The notes beneath the pieces are model-generated. The model was not told the origin of the DNA and ran no database searches. It was given only the letters and a program-made list of their open reading frames with translations. Source: Pseudopedobacter sp. (lineage in GTDB: Bacteria > Bacteroidota > Bacteroidia > Sphingobacteriales > Sphingobacteriaceae). From it: a DNA stretch of 45,100 nucleotides. Shown piece by piece: positions 26,976-43,276 of the stretch; positions within the stretch are counted from its first letter, which is position 1; each line of letters opens with the position of its first letter. A program made the position numbers and the translations under genes. Location: contig JACMOI010000009.1 in the NCBI GenBank assembly GCA_014378105.1, positions 1 to 45,100 on the forward strand, written 5' to 3'.

Positions 26976-27012
26976 TAAAATTAGTGATATTCGCGAATAA
27001 TCGTCAAATTTG
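26976..27012. promoter_or_regulatory. Overlapping divergent promoters and 12-bp palindrome between recX and murF-alr
   Basis: For recX (minus): TTTG (27008-27005), 21 bases, TAATTTTA (26983-26976), six bases before its ATG. For murF-alr (plus): CAAATTTG (27005-27012), six bases before its ATG. CAAATTTG reads the same on both strands, so it can serve as -33 one way and -7 the other. The perfect palindrome TATTCGCGAATA (26988-26999) lies between and is a candidate operator for both. Confidence 0.55.
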
Positions 27013-27018
27013 TTGCTG

Positions 27019-29475
27019 ATGTTTAAACAATCTTATACTGTTGAAGAACTAGCTGACCTAATTGCCCAAAAGGTATTGATTAATTTACCGCAACAGTTAA
27101 TTTCTCATTTATCAAGTGATAGCCGAAAAATCGCAACTCCCGAACATACTTTATTCTTCACCTTAAAGGGAAGAAGAGATGCACACCTGTTTATCTCTCA
27201 GCTATATCAACAAGGTGTAAGGAGTTTTGTAATCACAGATGAAAACTTTCAGACAAACCTTTATCCAGAGGCAAATTTTCTTTGGGTGAAAGATAGTTTG
27301 AAGGCTTTACAATTATTAGCCACTCAGCACCGTCAAAATTTTCATTATCCTGTAATTGGCATTACTGGAAGTAATGGAAAAACTATAGTAAAAGAATGGC
27401 TTTTTCAGTTATTGGTTCCCGATTATAAAATTGTTCGTAGCCCCAAAAGCTATAATTCCCAGATTGGTGTTCCGCTATCTGTTTGGCAAATGAATAAAAA
27501 TTATAATTTGGCGCTTTTTGAGGTTGGTATTTCTACCAAGTCAGAAATGGATCAACTAGAAAAAATTGTGAAGCCTGATATTGGTATTTTAACAAATATT
27601 GGCTCGGCACATGATGAAGGTTTTAAAAATAGAGAAGAGAAGCTAAAAGAGAAATTAAAGCTTTTTAAGGAAGCTGGAACTCTAATTATAAATGCAAACT
27701 TAGTCAGATCAAATATTCCTCAAAAGGATGTTTTTACTTGGAGTTTAAATGGCTCAGATGCTGATCTTAAAATTATTGCCATTCAAAAAGATGATGATCA
27801 AGCGCTGATTAGTTCGGTTTATCAATCAAAAGAAATAAGCATTAACATTCCATTTAATAGTCAATCACTAATTGAGGATGCTATTATTTGTTGGGCCACA
27901 CTTTTAAAACTAGGTGTAAAGCAAGAGATTATTCAACAAAGAATGTTAAAACTTTTGTCTGTTAAAATGCGATTAGAGTTAAAATCTGGGATTTATCAAT
28001 CCTCAATTATTGATGATTCTTATAACTCTGATTTTTCTTCTTTGGAGATTGCATTAGACTTTCTTAATCAACAAAAGCAACATTCTGATAAGACTTTAAT
28101 TTTATCAGATATTCATCAAACAGGTATTCCTCCAAAAGAGCTTTATCAAAATCTGATTCAATTATTAGAAACTAAAGGCATTCAACAATTTGTTGGCGTT
28201 GGAGAAGATCTTTACCAGTTTAAAGACGCATTTAAGATAAAAAGCTGGTTTTATAAAACAACCGATGATTTCTTAAATCAATTCGATACTTCTTTGATTA
28301 AAAACCAGATTGTGTTAATTAAAGGTGCAAGACATTTTGAGTTTGAGCGGATTAGTAAATTACTGACGCAAAAAGTTCACGATACGGTTTTAGAAATTAA
28401 TATGAATGCACTGGAATATAATCTAAATCATTATAAATCAAAGTTAAAACCAGGTGTAAAATTAATGGCCATGGTGAAAGCTTTTGCTTATGGAAGTGGG
28501 AGCGAGGAAGTAGCTAATTTATTGCAACATAACCGTGTTGATTATTTAGCTGTAGCCTATGCAGATGAAGGAATAACGTTAAGACAAGCTGGAGTTACTA
28601 TTCCAATTATGGTTTTGAGCCCAGAAGTTTCTTCTTTTGAAGCGATTGTTCAATATCAATTGGAACCAGAACTATACAATTTTAGAATTTTAAAGGCTTT
28701 CGCCGATTTTATTTCAGAGGCGGATCCTATTGAATACCCAGTTCATATTAAATTTGATACAGGCATGCATCGTTTGGGATTTGGAGCGGATGATTTTAAA
28801 GACTTATCGAATTTTTTATTGCAGAATTCACAATTGAAGGTTAAAAGTGTTTTATCGCATTTAGCGGCTAGTGATAGTGATTTGCATAGCGATTATACGG
28901 AATGTCAGATTCAATTATTTGATAAGCTTTCATCTAGTTTAAAAAGTGTTTTAGGATACGATTTTATCAGGCATATTTCCAATACCTCTGGTATTAGTAA
29001 ATGGCCCGAAGCTCAGTTTGATATGGTACGTTTAGGTATTGGGTTGTATGGCATTGAAAGTATTGAAAAGGAACGATCTGCTTTACATAACGTGGCCACA
29101 TTGAAAACCACCATCAGCCAAATTAAACATTTGAAAAAGGGTGATACCGTTGGATACGGCAGAAAAGGGGTGATGTTGGAAGACGGAAAAATAGCAACAG
29201 TTAAAATTGGTTATGCCGATGGATATCCTCGAGCTTTAGGGAATGGGGTTGGTAAAATGATGATTAACCATCATCAGGTACATACCATTGGGAGTATTTG
29301 TATGGATATGTGTATGTTGGACATTACGGGTTTAGCAATAAAAGAGGAAGATGAAGTGATTATTTTTGGAGAAAAAGCCTCTGTTTACGAAATGGCAAAT
29401 GATTTAAAAACTATTCCTTATGAAGTGATTACTAACATTTCGCAAAGGGTGAAAAGAGTTTATTTTTATGAGTAA
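27019..29475 (+). CDS. Bifunctional UDP-MurNAc-tripeptide:D-Ala-D-Ala ligase / alanine racemase (MurF-Alr fusion)
   Basis: The 818-residue protein joins two steps of cell-wall synthesis. The MurF half (about 1-450) has the Mur ligase P-loop GITGSNGKT (about 114-122), NIGSAHDEGF, and a C-terminal domain with DDSYNSDFSSLE. The Alr half (about 455-818) opens LEINMNALEYNLNHY, has the PLP lysine at about 487 in MVKAFAYGSG and the catalytic Tyr region DTVGYGRKG, then IKIGYADGYPR and GSICMDMCMLD. The racemase supplies D-Ala for the D-Ala-D-Ala that MurF attaches. The fusion is known across Bacteroidota. ATG 27019 is preferred over TTG/CTG codons just upstream, which lie within or next to the promoter box. 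The second racemase signature has Phe where VVKANAYG usually has Asn. Confidence 0.95.
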   Translation: MFKQSYTVEELADLIAQKVLINLPQQLISHLSSDSRKIATPEHTLFFTLKGRRDAHLFISQLYQQGVRSFVITDENFQTNLYPEANFLWVKDSLKALQLLATQHRQNFHYPVIGITGSNGKTIVKEWLFQLLVPDYKIVRSPKSYNSQIGVPLSVWQMNKNYNLALFEVGISTKSEMDQLEKIVKPDIGILTNIGSAHDEGFKNREEKLKEKLKLFKEAGTLIINANLVRSNIPQKDVFTWSLNGSDADLKIIAIQKDDDQALISSVYQSKEISINIPFNSQSLIEDAIICWATLLKLGVKQEIIQQRMLKLLSVKMRLELKSGIYQSSIIDDSYNSDFSSLEIALDFLNQQKQHSDKTLILSDIHQTGIPPKELYQNLIQLLETKGIQQFVGVGEDLYQFKDAFKIKSWFYKTTDDFLNQFDTSLIKNQIVLIKGARHFEFERISKLLTQKVHDTVLEINMNALEYNLNHYKSKLKPGVKLMAMVKAFAYGSGSEEVANLLQHNRVDYLAVAYADEGITLRQAGVTIPIMVLSPEVSSFEAIVQYQLEPELYNFRILKAFADFISEADPIEYPVHIKFDTGMHRLGFGADDFKDLSNFLLQNSQLKVKSVLSHLAASDSDLHSDYTECQIQLFDKLSSSLKSVLGYDFIRHISNTSGISKWPEAQFDMVRLGIGLYGIESIEKERSALHNVATLKTTISQIKHLKKGDTVGYGRKGVMLEDGKIATVKIGYADGYPRALGNGVGKMMINHHQVHTIGSICMDMCMLDITGLAIKEEDEVIIFGEKASVYEMANDLKTIPYEVITNISQRVKRVYFYE

Positions 29476-37614: not shown

Positions 37615-38451
37615 TTGAAAAGTCTTCTTTTAATCCTTTTTTTAATAATGAATATTTTTGTTGCACTAGCCGGTGTCAAGAAAGAAAAAGATTTGGCTTA
37701 CGCCGATGCTGGAACATCGAATTTATTAGATATCTACCATTCAGATCAGTTTTCAAAACCTCAAGATGTTATTGTTTTTATTCACGGTGGTTCATGGAAT
37801 AGCGGTTCAAAAGATACTTATTGGTTTTTAGGAAGAAATTTTGCCCGAAAAGGTAAAATAGCCGTCATCATTAATTATCCATTATCTCCCAATGTTCAAT
37901 ATGACGCGATGGCTTATGATTGCGCAAAAGCACTCAAATGGGTTAAAAACCATATTCAAGAATATGGGGGAAACCCTAATCGAATTTTTGTGATGGGCCA
38001 TTCAGCAGGTGGGCATTTAGCAGCATTAATTAATCAAAATCCTAAATATTTTAATAAAACGGGTATTCAAAATCCTATTAAAGGAGTTATTTTAAATGAT
38101 CCTTTTGGCTTAAATATCTATCAATATATGAAACTACAAATCAATACTGATGATAAATATATACCTGGGTTTTTAAAAGTTTTTAGTGCGGATGAAACTG
38201 AATGGAAGAAAGCTTCTCCCTTCTTCACTGTCGATCAAATTCAAAATCCTTATCAACTGTTTTCCGGTTCAAAAACTTATCCATCAATTCAAATGCAAAC
38301 TCCTGCTTTTTATAAGGCTCTAAAAGAAAGTCATAAATCCGTTAGTTTTGAAATTATTAATGGGAGGAAACATATTGGAATGATTACACAAATGATTTTC
38401 GGTTGTAATAAGATGTATGATAAAATCATTGATTTTATAGATAAACACTAA
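37615..38451 (+). CDS. Alpha/beta-hydrolase esterase, exported
   Basis: The 278-residue protein has a signal-like N-terminus (MKSLLLILFLIMNIFVALAG), the oxyanion-hole motif HGGSWNSGSK near residues 56-65, the nucleophile elbow GHSAGGHLA (Ser about 130) and a C-terminal His in GRKHIGM, as in the BD-FAE/carboxylesterase group related to hormone-sensitive lipase. The start is TTG at 37615; an ATG at 37648 would cut into the signal peptide. The substrate may be a small ester or an acylated sugar. It ends a run beginning at recR, and its 3' end overlaps the convergent channel gene by four bases. Confidence 0.85.
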   Translation: MKSLLLILFLIMNIFVALAGVKKEKDLAYADAGTSNLLDIYHSDQFSKPQDVIVFIHGGSWNSGSKDTYWFLGRNFARKGKIAVIINYPLSPNVQYDAMAYDCAKALKWVKNHIQEYGGNPNRIFVMGHSAGGHLAALINQNPKYFNKTGIQNPIKGVILNDPFGLNIYQYMKLQINTDDKYIPGFLKVFSADETEWKKASPFFTVDQIQNPYQLFSGSKTYPSIQMQTPAFYKALKESHKSVSFEIINGRKHIGMITQMIFGCNKMYDKIIDFIDKH

Positions 38452-39389
38452 TTAAGCAGCGAATAATCGCTTACTTTTGAAATATCAATTGAGAAAATAC
38501 CATCTTCATCAGTTTTAATGATTTGGTCGAATTTTGCGTCAAAAATAATTTCGCTTGCCTGATAAGAGGTTCGAGAATGAACATTTTGAGAGAAGGCGTC
38601 ATCAAAAGCTTTCAAGAATACAACAAACTCAGCTTCGCTGTCTAATAAATCCTTTTTATTTAAGCCATAAAGTGGGCTTTCCTCCGTAATTGGATGAACT
38701 ATGGTCCACCCTAAAGTAAGTAACTGAATGGCTTTCCTTTCTAATTCTAGTTGGACAAATCTTCTAATGGGTTTCCCATTTTCCGATATATTGATACTCA
38801 ACATGACATTCATTTCTAGATCAATTAATTGATTACTTCTTAAATTGGCTAGTCTAAACATATATGCTTTTCCATCCTTATAAGGAGCTACAATTATTTT
38901 TTCGCTATAAACCATCTTAGCTGTTGGGCGAGAAAACCTTCCATATAATAAACCGGTGGCCAATGCAAAGGTTAATAAACCAATAAAAGATTCTAATGCG
39001 GCAACAATATTGGTAAAAAAACCAGAAGGACTTAAATGACCATACCCAACAGTAGCAATTGTTTGCGCAGAGAAAAAGAAGGCATCAGCAAATTTTGTAA
39101 GCGGTGTTGAACTCACCGAGCCATTTAAATGCTCCATTCCTAGTAAAAAGTAAATGGTTGCAAACAATAAATTGATGAGGACGTAAGAAATGGATACAGT
39201 AACCCAAAACCTATTCCAACTCATATAAATTAGTGAGTTGTAGGCTTCATGTGGCTTAAAAAAAGGAAGTCCTTTTCTTCTAACATTAGAACTGCCGTCT
39301 TTATTTAGCAAACGCTGATTATTAGTAGTTGGATTTTTTCCAAACCCCATATCCTCGTCTACCTTGGCTTTTCCTTTTAGTTTAATCAT
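38448..39389 (-). CDS. Inward-rectifier-type potassium channel (KirBac-like)
   Basis: The 313-residue protein has the Kir plan: a slide helix region (HEAYNSLIYMSWNRF), a first membrane segment (about 62-84), a pore helix and selectivity filter TVGYG (113-117), a second segment (about 122-148), and a cytoplasmic immunoglobulin-like C-terminal domain (about 155-305; MFRLANLRSNQLIDLEMNVML, GWTIVHPITEESPLYGL, both typical of Kir). It passes K+ across the inner membrane and is gated by lipids or ligands. It is divergent from the trp attenuator region. Confidence 0.95.
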   Translation of the reverse strand: MIKLKGKAKVDEDMGFGKNPTTNNQRLLNKDGSSNVRRKGLPFFKPHEAYNSLIYMSWNRFWVTVSISYVLINLLFATIYFLLGMEHLNGSVSSTPLTKFADAFFFSAQTIATVGYGHLSPSGFFTNIVAALESFIGLLTFALATGLLYGRFSRPTAKMVYSEKIIVAPYKDGKAYMFRLANLRSNQLIDLEMNVMLSINISENGKPIRRFVQLELERKAIQLLTLGWTIVHPITEESPLYGLNKKDLLDSEAEFVVFLKAFDDAFSQNVHSRTSYQASEIIFDAKFDQIIKTDEDGIFSIDISKVSDYSLLN

Positions 39390-39420
39390 GTAATAATTTC
39401 AGTTTTAATTGCCGTTAATT

Positions 39421-39450
39421 TTTGGAATATTCAAAATTTTACCATATTTG
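39421..39450 (+). promoter_or_regulatory. trp operon promoter
   Basis: TTTG (39421-39424), 18-base spacer, CATATTTG (39443-39450): one mismatch from the Bacteroidota consensus. The expected start is near 39455-39457, only about five bases before the leader-peptide ATG. Confidence 0.72.
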
Positions 39451-39460
39451 CGACGTAAAG

Positions 39461-39514
39461 ATGAAAAATTTAAATGTAAATACAATCTGGTGGTGGCATT
39501 ACGAAAATTCGTAA
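39461..39514 (+). CDS. trpL: trp operon leader peptide
   Basis: The 17-residue frame MKNLNVNTIWWWHYENS has three consecutive TGG codons at 39488-39496 and stops at 39512-39514, just before a sequence able to form an antiterminator. A Trp triplet in a 17-residue frame upstream of trp genes and an intrinsic terminator is the hallmark of ribosome-mediated attenuation. Plenty of charged tRNA-Trp lets the ribosome reach the stop and mask the antiterminator; shortage stalls it on the Trp codons and frees it. Confidence 0.87.
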   Translation: MKNLNVNTIWWWHYENS

Positions 39515-39578
39515 GGCTTAACCTGATTATTTACAAAATGAGATAATAGAGGGTTGCCGTTGGTAACCCTTTTTTTTT
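39515..39578 (+). promoter_or_regulatory. trp attenuator: antiterminator and terminator hairpins
   Basis: The terminator is GGGTTGCC (39551-39558), loop GTT, GGTAACCC (39562-39569), then nine T (39570-39578), ending 16 bases before the trpD ATG. The competing segment GGCTTAACC (39515-39523), starting right after the leader stop, can pair with GGTTGCC (39552-39558) with a two-base bulge, which breaks the terminator stem. TTACGAA-AA-TTCGTAA (39499-39514) may be the pause hairpin. Segments are in the order 1-2-3-4 expected of the enteric model. Confidence 0.87.
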
Positions 39579-39594
39579 GATTAAAAACAAAAAG

Positions 39595-40593
39595 ATGAAA
39601 GCGATTTTAAATCACTTATTTGAACAAAAAACTTTTAGCAGAGAACAGTCCAAAGAAATTTTAACCAATATTTCTTTAGGTAAATATAATGCCTCACAAA
39701 TGACCGCATTTATGACTGCCTATTGCATGAGAAACATCACTGTTGAGGAGTTACAAGGCTTTAGAGAGGCCATGATTGAGCTTTGTATCCCTGTAAATTT
39801 AACTAATGAGTTTAATCTTGTCGATTTATGCGGTACAGGTGGTGACGGTAAAGACACTTTTAATATCTCAACATTAGCATCTTTTGTTGTTGCGGGGGCG
39901 GGGTATCAAGTCGCGAAACATGGTAATTATGGTGTTTCTTCTAGCTGTGGTTCCTCAAACGTGATGGAGTATTTAGGCTATAAATTCACCAATGATGAAT
40001 CTGTTTTAAAGAAATCTTTACATGAAGCTGGGATATGTTTTTTACATGCACCACTTTTTCACCCAGCCATGAAAAACGTTGCGCCCATTAGAAGAGAACT
40101 AGGGGTGAAAACATTTTTTAATATGTTAGGGCCAATGGTAAATCCTGCTCAACCTCAAAATCAAATAGTTGGAGTTTTTAGTTTGGAGTTAGCTCGATTA
40201 TATGCCTACTTATATCAACAATCAAATAAAAACTATACTATTTTACATGCACTAGAAGGATATGACGAGGTCTCTTTAACTTGTGATTTTAAAACTTTTT
40301 CTAATAAAGGAGAACAAATTCATAGTATTGAGAGTTTGGGATTTGAACAGATTGATGCAGCAACCATAAGTGGTGGAAGCACAATTGAAGAATCTGCTGA
40401 AATATTTAAGAAAGTGTTATCAAATAAGGCTTCTCACCAACAAAGAGATGTTGTTTTATGCAATGCAGCATTAGCCATTCAAACGGTAGATCAGCAAAAA
40501 TCATTTGCCGATTGTTATTATTTAGCCGAACAATCTTTAGCAGGAGGTAAAGCTTTGCAATCTTTTCAAAAACTAATTGCAATCAGTAATTAA
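39595..40593 (+). CDS. trpD: Anthranilate phosphoribosyltransferase
   Basis: The 332-residue enzyme transfers phosphoribose from PRPP to anthranilate. Motifs: the PRPP-binding LCGTGGDGKDTFNIST, KHGNYGVSSSCGSSNVMEYLG, HPAMKNVAPIRRELGVKTFFNMLGPMVNP, and HALEGYDEVSL. The ATG at 39595 is chosen because an in-frame TTG at 39577 overlaps the last T of the attenuator. It is the first structural gene here; trpE and trpG, usually upstream, are absent, and a potassium channel gene lies on the other strand. Confidence 0.97.
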   Translation: MKAILNHLFEQKTFSREQSKEILTNISLGKYNASQMTAFMTAYCMRNITVEELQGFREAMIELCIPVNLTNEFNLVDLCGTGGDGKDTFNISTLASFVVAGAGYQVAKHGNYGVSSSCGSSNVMEYLGYKFTNDESVLKKSLHEAGICFLHAPLFHPAMKNVAPIRRELGVKTFFNMLGPMVNPAQPQNQIVGVFSLELARLYAYLYQQSNKNYTILHALEGYDEVSLTCDFKTFSNKGEQIHSIESLGFEQIDAATISGGSTIEESAEIFKKVLSNKASHQQRDVVLCNAALAIQTVDQQKSFADCYYLAEQSLAGGKALQSFQKLIAISN

Positions 40594-40595
40594 AA

Positions 40596-41228
40596 ATGGA
40601 CTTAAAGATAAAGGTTTGTGGGATGAGAAATGAAGCAAATGTGAACGCATTAGCGGCATTATGGCCAGATTTCATGGGGTTTATATTTTATCCGCCTTCA
40701 AAAAGATTTGTGGGATTAGAGTTTGATAAAAATCTTGTTTCAAAATTACCTGATCAAATTATAAAAACCGGTGTCTTCGTGAATGCGCAAGTTCATGAGG
40801 TGATTGAATTTAGTAAACTTTATGGTTTTAAAGCTGTTCAATTACATGGAGATGAAACACCAGAATTTTGCCAAAAAATTAAAGGTGAAGGCTTTATTGT
40901 TTTAAAAGCTTTTGGTTTGGATGATGATTTTGATTTCGATAGTTTAAAAGCTTACGAAGCGCATGTCGATTATTTTTTGTTTGACACAAAAGTTGACACT
41001 TATGGAGGATCTGGACAAACTTTCGATTGGACTATTTTAGATAGCTATCAGCTAGATCAACCTTTCTTTTTAAGTGGTGGTTTGAGTTTAGATAATTTAG
41101 AAAGTATTAAAGAAATCAATCACCAGAAGTTTTACGGTTTAGATTTAAATTCAAAGTTCGAGATTGAACCTGGATTAAAAAGTATAGAAAAATTAACAAT
41201 AGCATTTAGCTTGATTAAAAAATTATGA
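40596..41228 (+). CDS. trpF: Phosphoribosylanthranilate isomerase
   Basis: The 210-residue TIM barrel starts with the family signature [11 protein letters not shown] (catalytic Cys8), then [17 protein letters not shown]-like [33 protein letters not shown] (catalytic Asp region) and [10 protein letters not shown]. It follows trpD by two bases and overlaps trpB by four bases (ATGA). In most trp operons of the phylum as I know them, trpC sits between trpD and trpF; here it is missing and TrpF is not fused to a TrpC domain. Confidence 0.97.
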
Positions 41229-42412
41229 TCATGAATTATAGAGTGGACGATAGGGGTTATTATGGTGATTTTGGAGGAGCTTACATCCCAGAAATGCTTT
41301 ATCCTAATATCGAGAAGTTAAGAAATGAATATTTAAAAATTATAGCTCAACCTGATTTTCAAAAAGAATTCAAAAGCTTGTTGAAAGATTATGTGGGTCG
41401 GCCTTCTCCATTATTTCTGGCAAAAAGATTATCGGAGAAGTATGGTGCTCAGATTTATTTAAAAAGAGAAGATTTAAATCATACTGGAGCTCATAAAATT
41501 AATAATACAGTAGGTCAGATTATTTTGGCCCAAAAGCTAGGTAAGAAAAGGATCATTGCCGAAACAGGGGCTGGTCAGCATGGTGTGGCGACCGCGACAG
41601 TTTGTGCTTTAAAAGGCTTAGAATGCGTGATTTATATGGGTGAAGTTGACATTAAACGTCAAGCACCAAACGTTGCTCGTATGAAGATGATGGGTGCAAC
41701 TGTTATTCCTGCTACATCAGGAAGTAAAACCTTAAAGGACGCTACTAACGAAGCGATGAGAGACTGGATCAACAATCCAGTAGACACCCACTATATCATT
41801 GGCTCTGTTGTTGGGCCGCACCCTTACCCCGAGATGGTTTCCCTTTTTCAATCCATTATTTCTAAAGAAACTAAACAACAGTTAATCGAACAAACTGGTA
41901 ACGATCAGCCAGACTATGTATTGGCTTGTGTAGGTGGTGGAAGTAATGCTATGGGCATGTTTTATCATTTTTTAGATGATGATAAAGTAAGATTAATTGC
42001 AGCCGAAGCCGCTGGTTTAGGGATCAACACTGGTCATTCAGCGGCAACCTCTGTGCTTGGAAGAGAAGGTGTTTTGCATGGTTCAAGAACCATTTTAATG
42101 CAGACAGAGGATGGCCAGGTCACTGAACCTTATTCAATTTCTGCAGGTTTAGATTATCCAGGAATTGGTCCACAGCATGCGCATCTACATAAGGTAAAAA
42201 GGGTTGAATATGTAAGTATTACCGATGATGAAGCAATGGAAGCAAGTATGGAACTATCTAAATTAGAAGGGATCATTCCAGCTATTGAAACAGGACATGC
42301 TTTGGCGCAACTCAAAAAAATGACCTTCAAAAAGGAAGATGTTGTAGTGATTTGCCTTTCGGGAAGAGGGGATAAGGATTTAGAAACTTTTATGAAATAT
42401 TTTAACCTTTAA
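41225..42412 (+). CDS. trpB: Tryptophan synthase beta chain
   Basis: The 395-residue PLP enzyme joins indole and serine. [10 protein letters not shown] opens the N-terminus, the PLP lysine is Lys91 in HTGAHKINN, then [40 protein letters not shown] (phosphate loop) and [12 protein letters not shown]. All are typical TrpB1 motifs. ATG 41225 overlaps the trpF stop; ATG 41231 two codons later is equally possible and gives the more usual MNYRVDD start. It is separated from trpA by 90 non-coding bases. Confidence 0.98.
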
Positions 42413-42502: not shown

Positions 42503-43276
42503 ATGAACAGATTAACTCAACTCTTTGAAAAAAAGAAAAACGATATACTCTCTATCTACTTCACAGCAGGTTATCCCGAAATAGGAGCAACGCTTAAAAT
42601 TGCAGAAGCTTTAGAGAAGGCAGGTGCAGATTTTTTAGAAATAGGTTTTCCTTATTCTGATCCTTTAGCTGATGGGCCAGTGATTCAACATAGTTCACAA
42701 GTGGCGATAGAAAATGGGATGACTTTAAAAGTCCTGTTTGAACAATTGAAAGATTTAAGAAGTAGGGTTTCTATTCCAATATTATTAATGGGTTATGCTA
42801 ATCCAATGATTCAATACGGAGTGAGTAATTTTTGTAAAGTAGCCGCTGAAGTAGGAATGGATGGTGTAATTGTGCCTGATTTACCATTATATGAGTATGA
42901 AGAACTTTATAAAAATGATTTCATCGATAACGGATTAAGCAATATCTTTCTAGTAACGCCACAAACGTCTGAAGAACGGATCAGAAAGATAGATAGCCTC
43001 TCCAACGGATTTATCTATTTACTTTCTTCTTCATCAACCACAGGGAAAGATTTAAATGTATCGAAGGAGATTGGCGACTATTATAACAGGGTAAAAGCGA
43101 TGCATCTTAAAAATCCATTAATCATAGGATTTGGAATTTCAGATCATCAAAGTTTTTCCCGAGCAAATCAATATGCAAATGGCGCAATTGTAGGTACTGC
43201 TTTTGTAAAAGAATTAGGCGATCCAGAAAATTATTTGAGTCATATACCAGAATTTATCAGGAAAATTAAGGGTTAG
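42503..43276 (+). CDS. trpA: Tryptophan synthase alpha chain
   Basis: The 257-residue TIM barrel cleaves indole-3-glycerol phosphate to indole, channelled to TrpB. The catalytic Glu46 and Asp57 lie in FLEIGFPYSDPLADGPVIQ; FTAGYPE opens the barrel, and LLMGYANPM, DGVIVPDLPLYEYEEL and VGTAFVKEL follow. It ends the operon, one base from the convergent nhaA stop. No terminator is visible in that overlap zone. The 90-base gap from trpB is longer than other gaps in the operon and has only a bulged weak hairpin. Confidence 0.97.
   Translation: MNRLTQLFEKKKNDILSIYFTAGYPEIGATLKIAEALEKAGADFLEIGFPYSDPLADGPVIQHSSQVAIENGMTLKVLFEQLKDLRSRVSIPILLMGYANPMIQYGVSNFCKVAAEVGMDGVIVPDLPLYEYEELYKNDFIDNGLSNIFLVTPQTSEERIRKIDSLSNGFIYLLSSSSTTGKDLNVSKEIGDYYNRVKAMHLKNPLIIGFGISDHQSFSRANQYANGAIVGTAFVKELGDPENYLSHIPEFIRKIKG

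Follow-up and report, generated by a model that had tools for sequence, protein, structure and literature searches.

A putative ribosome-mediated tryptophan attenuator before trpDFBA in Sphingobacteriaceae, one of a pair on a split pathway

Four tryptophan biosynthesis genes lie head to tail in the window, by which is meant the whole 45,100-nucleotide stretch of Pseudopedobacter sp. DNA analysed here. A short open reading frame (ORF) with a run of Trp codons, and a hairpin ending in a run of T, stand immediately before them. Does this leader region set the expression of the genes behind it, and why does it precede trpD and not trpE? The genes concerned are as follows.

38448-39389, minus strand: inward-rectifier potassium channel (Kir family) gene, the upstream neighbour, divergent from the trp leader
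39595-40593, plus strand: trpD, anthranilate phosphoribosyltransferase, first gene of the putatively attenuated operon, ATG at 39595 (Pfam PF00591, 3.5e-67; PF02885)
40596-41228, plus strand: trpF, PRA isomerase (Pfam PF00697, 1.5e-36)
41225-42412, plus strand: trpB, tryptophan synthase beta chain (Pfam PF00291; the order D-F-B-A is found in relatives by tblastn)
42503-43276, plus strand: trpA, tryptophan synthase alpha chain (Pfam PF00290, 3.6e-72)

Further upstream in the window (27010-29475, plus strand), a single ORF of 821 aa fuses a Mur ligase domain with an alanine racemase.

The region between the two divergent genes can be resolved into the parts of an attenuator, read from the sequence, its predicted folds and its relatives:

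39421-39450, plus strand: promoter of Bacteroidota type, TTTG-N18-CATATTTG, with the TTTG box at 39421-39424, a spacer of 18 nt and CATATTTG at 39443-39450 (from sequence; transcription start predicted)
39461-39514, plus strand: leader peptide ORF MKNLNVNTIWWWHYENS, 17 codons, TAA included in the coordinates, with three TGG codons (Trp-Trp-Trp) at 39488-39496 and the stop at 39512-39514 (from sequence, the ORF also from relatives)
39475-39535, plus strand: 1:2 hairpin, in which the Trp codons pair with segment 2 (minimum free energy (MFE) and centroid folds; conserved)
39499-39504/39509-39514, plus strand: core of the 1:2 hairpin, GGC/GCU and GGU/ACC (MFE and centroid folds)
39515-39524, plus strand: segment 2, GGCUUAACCU, the antiterminator 5' arm (constrained folds; duplex energies in relatives)
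39548-39558, plus strand: segment 3, AGAGGGUUGCC, the antiterminator 3' arm and terminator 5' arm (folds, alignment)
39562-39578, plus strand: segment 4, GGUAACCC and nine U, completing the intrinsic terminator (terminator scan, folds, covariation)

A preliminary description of this DNA had named the promoter, a 17-residue leader with three adjacent Trp codons and a competing segment just past the leader stop, and all of these are present; segment 2, complementary to the terminator 5' arm, has its first nucleotide at 39515, immediately 3' of the stop codon. The same description had a perfect 8-bp terminator with nine T. The nine T stand at 39570-39578, but the 8-bp core GGGUUGCC/GGUAACCC contains one G-U pair, and the stem (39548-39558/39562-39572, loop GTT) reaches 11 bp when flanking A-U and G-U pairs are counted. 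This is the single site returned by a terminator scan of 38500-40500, in which 1.3 sites are expected by chance, so that the scan by itself proves nothing. The terminator at 39548-39578 serves no upstream gene, because the neighbour at 38448-39389 is divergent. The -7 box lies about 10 nt from the leader AUG, which suggests a start near 39451-39460 and a 5' UTR of a few nucleotides. In 54 of 55 sequences an AT.TTTG box stands within the 60 nt that precede the leader ATG, and its usual distance of 5-16 nt from that ATG supports a very short 5' UTR; where TTTG is found in relatives, the promoter spacer is mostly 19-20 nt.

The element is very probably a ribosome-mediated transcription attenuator that sets trpDFBA expression by Trp-tRNA supply. 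This reading, put forward in the preliminary description, agrees with the in-frame Trp run, the 1:2, 2:3 and 3:4 pairings, the modelled ribosome geometry and the position before trp genes. RNA polymerase would start a few nucleotides before the leader AUG, with a ribosome following. Under a shortage of charged tRNA-Trp, the ribosome would stall at 39488-39496 and cover segment 1, so that segment 2 (39515-39524) could pair with segment 3; no terminator would form and trpDFBA would be transcribed. With ample Trp-tRNA, the ribosome would reach the stop at 39512-39514 and cover segment 2, the 3:4 terminator would form and transcription would stop in the U run. If the leader is not translated at all, 1:2 and 3:4 would form together and transcription would likewise end.

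Folding calculations are consistent with this scheme. The leader RNA has an MFE of -35.9 against -20.6 ± 3.1 for shuffled sequences (z -4.9; 0/200 shuffles as good), and the pairings 1:2, 2:3 and 3:4 are all present and mutually exclusive, which bears out the alternative 2:3 and 3:4 structures proposed earlier. Constrained folds with no ribosome give 1:2 and 3:4. The stalled folds place W3 in the A site and let the ribosome cover the RNA as far as 11 nt beyond the first nucleotide of W3, a footprint assumed from general knowledge. With the ribosome on W3 and the nascent RNA extending up to the start of segment 4, the antiterminator forms at -9.9 to -11.1 kcal/mol, as a GGC...GCC helix plus CCU and AUUAUUU helices. 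With the ribosome on the leader stop, 2:3 is absent (-2.0 to -3.2 kcal/mol) and the terminator forms once segment 4 emerges; if the footprint at the stop is made 3 nt shorter, a partial CCU-AGG pairing persists (-5.7). The complete 3:4 hairpin is thermodynamically favoured over 2:3 in the constrained folds, and antitermination must therefore be kinetic, as in E. coli. The locus thus has three traits of the Trp attenuator class: (i) a short ORF, ahead of trp genes, in which Trp codons cluster, (ii) an intrinsic terminator between the leader and the first gene, (iii) a 2:3 pairing that in folding is accessible at the Trp-codon stall and masked at the stop, with weak covariation in the alignment.

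Is the arrangement conserved? The comparison covers 80 trpD loci, 58 of them from Sphingobacteriales (L004-L061); the nearest named relatives of the window are Sphingobacteriaceae (Pelobium, Pedobacter, Mucilaginibacter), and L004, whose protein is 99% identical to the window's, does not count as independent. A Trp-rich leader (WW or WWW) is found at 57 of the 58 Sphingobacteriales loci, L061 being the only one of the 58 to lack it. It lies no more than 360 nt from trpD in 54 loci, every one of which has a terminator after the leader (54/54), and further upstream in L026, L035 and L040. In these three loci, from some Pedobacter, an insertion with many short repeats, several hundred bases long, separates the attenuator from trpD. 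Differences in leader ORF length are mostly multiples of 3 and located at the start of the ORF.

Conservation extends to the pairings. In the terminator alignment, 95% of the pair cells are kept and 5 pairs are changed on both sides, and the inner stem core of 1:2 shows compensatory changes at two pairs in many sequences (UA/CG and AU/CG). For 2:3, 84% of cells are paired, against 13-52% in slid versions, and in relatives segments 2 and 3 form a stronger duplex than they do when segment 2 is shuffled (mean z about -3). Covariation of 2:3 in a fixed-column alignment is not above that of shuffles, one pair excepted, partly because bulges shift the register. When segments 2 and 3 are swapped between groups the native pairing is not consistently the best, because the GGGUUGCC arms are intrinsically sticky.

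A short, Trp-rich peptide could also act like TnaC, with nascent WWWHYENS stalling the ribosome by binding free tryptophan instead of the ribosome waiting for Trp-tRNA, and the residues after WWW (H/L/Q, N/Y) are indeed partly conserved within subfamilies. Across the relatives, however, the flanks of WWW vary widely (HYENS, HNAIA, LNE, RCINCGR, HKG) while WW or WWW persists, and stalling at high free tryptophan would open segment 2, the opposite of what a biosynthetic operon needs; such a mode of action is very improbable.

Comparison with curated RNA families places attenuation by Trp-tRNA supply in a known context. The best Rfam match of the leader region is RF01692 (40.9 bits, E 0.0018), Bacteroid-trp, the Bacteroidete tryptophan peptide leader RNA (Weinberg et al. 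2010, PMC2864571), which has been discussed as E. coli-like control of the Flavobacterium psychrophilum trp operon (PMC6414381); in the literature on Bacteroidota trp attenuators, only this source paper and this one mention proved relevant. The score falls short of the gathering score of 49 bits, and because it is below the cutoff a whole-genome search of the window's own genome with RF01692 at E 0.001 gives no match. In a test of 12 loci the cutoff was reached only at the trpE leaders of L070, L077 and L079, which are Flavobacteriaceae-type. Model R1, constructed from trpD leaders, recovers these same RF01692 matches with E values of 1.4e-8 to 9.6e-7, which indicates that the element is homologous to members scoring at or above the cutoff. 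The RF01692 consensus and the window element share a leader AUG, UGGUGGUGg with a hairpin after it, and a place ahead of trp genes, and both come from the same phylum; unlike the matches at the cutoff, the window element precedes trpD of a split operon. By sequence comparison, then, the element is homologous to RF01692 without falling inside the curated family, and for the phylum such a mechanism had already been proposed; the element therefore belongs to an already known kind. The preliminary view that such a leader is unusual for Bacteroidota is weakened accordingly, as these leaders occur class-wide and have had an Rfam entry since 2010. What is gained is that an attenuator type already recognised in Bacteroidota, though hardly tested, now extends to a family of organisms that Rfam misses.

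The classical E. coli trp attenuator is more distant: RF00513 (Trp_leader) scores 21.8 bits against a 41-bit cutoff. Both have Trp codons in a short leader, competition among 1:2, 2:3 and 3:4, and a stop just before segment 2. In contrast with E. coli, the window leader has three Trp codons, not two, stands before trpD, and has no Shine-Dalgarno sequence and almost no 5' UTR. It would thus offer a clean system for attenuation with a translation start that lacks Shine-Dalgarno pairing.

A terminator with alternative pairings might instead answer to a protein or ligand (TRAP-like, T-box or riboswitch), with the ORF incidental. No T-box or riboswitch is among the Rfam matches of the leader region, whose best match is itself a leader-peptide element; no G/UAG repeat array is seen in the leader, and the in-frame Trp run is conserved in nearly all relatives, all of which makes such control extremely improbable. 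Equally little can be expected of an additional action in trans by the leader transcript or peptide after termination, as is reportedly the case for trpL in Rhizobiales, although termination would set free an RNA of about 120 nt whenever Trp is sufficient.

That a constitutive promoter and an ordinary terminator merely flank a chance ORF is scarcely credible: a side genus keeps the terminator without the leader ORF, but random 600-nt stretches of related loci yield a WWW short ORF followed by a terminator in 0/1500 cases, against a leader in nearly every Sphingobacteriales locus. In the same control, a WW or WxW ORF with a terminator occurs in 5/1500. Loss of the leader with retention of the terminator is seen only in that genus, where L138 and L142 (genomes G044 and G002) have lost the trpD leader ORF and retain a promoter-like box and the terminator. 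Attenuation seems to be decaying there, judging by these sequences and by a trpE leader with only one Trp codon.

The position before trpD, correctly described at the outset, follows from a split of the trp operon in which each block has its own attenuator. In Sphingobacteriaceae the trp genes are divided into trpE(-G-C) and trpDFBA, with trpE and trpD on separate contigs or far apart wherever both are found. The window's own genome has trpE on contig C179 (L001), with its own leader MNKNINTNNSWWRSLKAASDNLFV and terminator AACCCGACG...CGTCGGGTT, and this leader shows the same stall and stop behaviour in folds as the trpD leader. Its trpG and trpC lie side by side on contig C83, in a fragment (L003) that starts inside trpG and has no leader between trpG and trpC; trpE, trpG and trpC probably form one block in this genome, interrupted by contig breaks. 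The second, sequence-distinct attenuator would act on trpE as the first does on trpDFBA, so that both halves of the pathway would answer the same signal.

Paired leaders are the rule in the family. With W.W leaders accepted, a Trp-rich leader precedes both trpE and trpD in 44 of 48 assessable genomes, the window's included. The exceptions are G008 and three members of a single genus (G002, G027 and G044); these three have lost the leader ORF before trpD, and their trpE leader has one Trp codon run at most. The trpE leaders of the window's genome and of other Sphingobacteriaceae resemble the trpD leader in having WW or WWW, a terminator and an antiterminator; they differ in the sequence of segments 2, 3 and 4 (CCCGACG...CGTCGGG) and often have a longer ORF. 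In the outgroups (Cyclobacteriaceae, Flavobacteriaceae, Spirosoma and relatives), trpEGDCFBA is intact and a WWW leader precedes trpE in 19 of 19 loci examined. The trpD-leader model scores these outgroup trpE leaders at 40-59 bits, as against 33-41 for the trpE leaders of Sphingobacteriaceae themselves, which would fit a trpDFBA leader that kept the ancestral form. Tentatively, then, the split in Sphingobacteriaceae may have been accompanied by a doubling of the attenuator, with the trpDFBA leader ancestral in form and the trpE leader diverged (another terminator; W.W, WW or WWW), and the tryptophan level at which each half opens might differ. A split operon with paired attenuators is a modestly new angle, a natural experiment in which one pathway is divided in two with a separate ribosome-read switch for each half.

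Across the class, the trpD-leader model picks up WWW leaders ahead of trpE and also ahead of trpB-trpE. The latter, in L194 and L199 from other Bacteroidia, combine another gene order with the same leader type. In L072 (Fulvivirga marina), two complete WWW leader-terminator attenuators, MKNNSLNNAWWWHYTKTW and MRTLIYINKVWWWHFSHIGE, lie in tandem before trpE at 2647-2779 and 2795-2918; a pattern search for this tandem spacing matched 1 of 60 genomes of the family.
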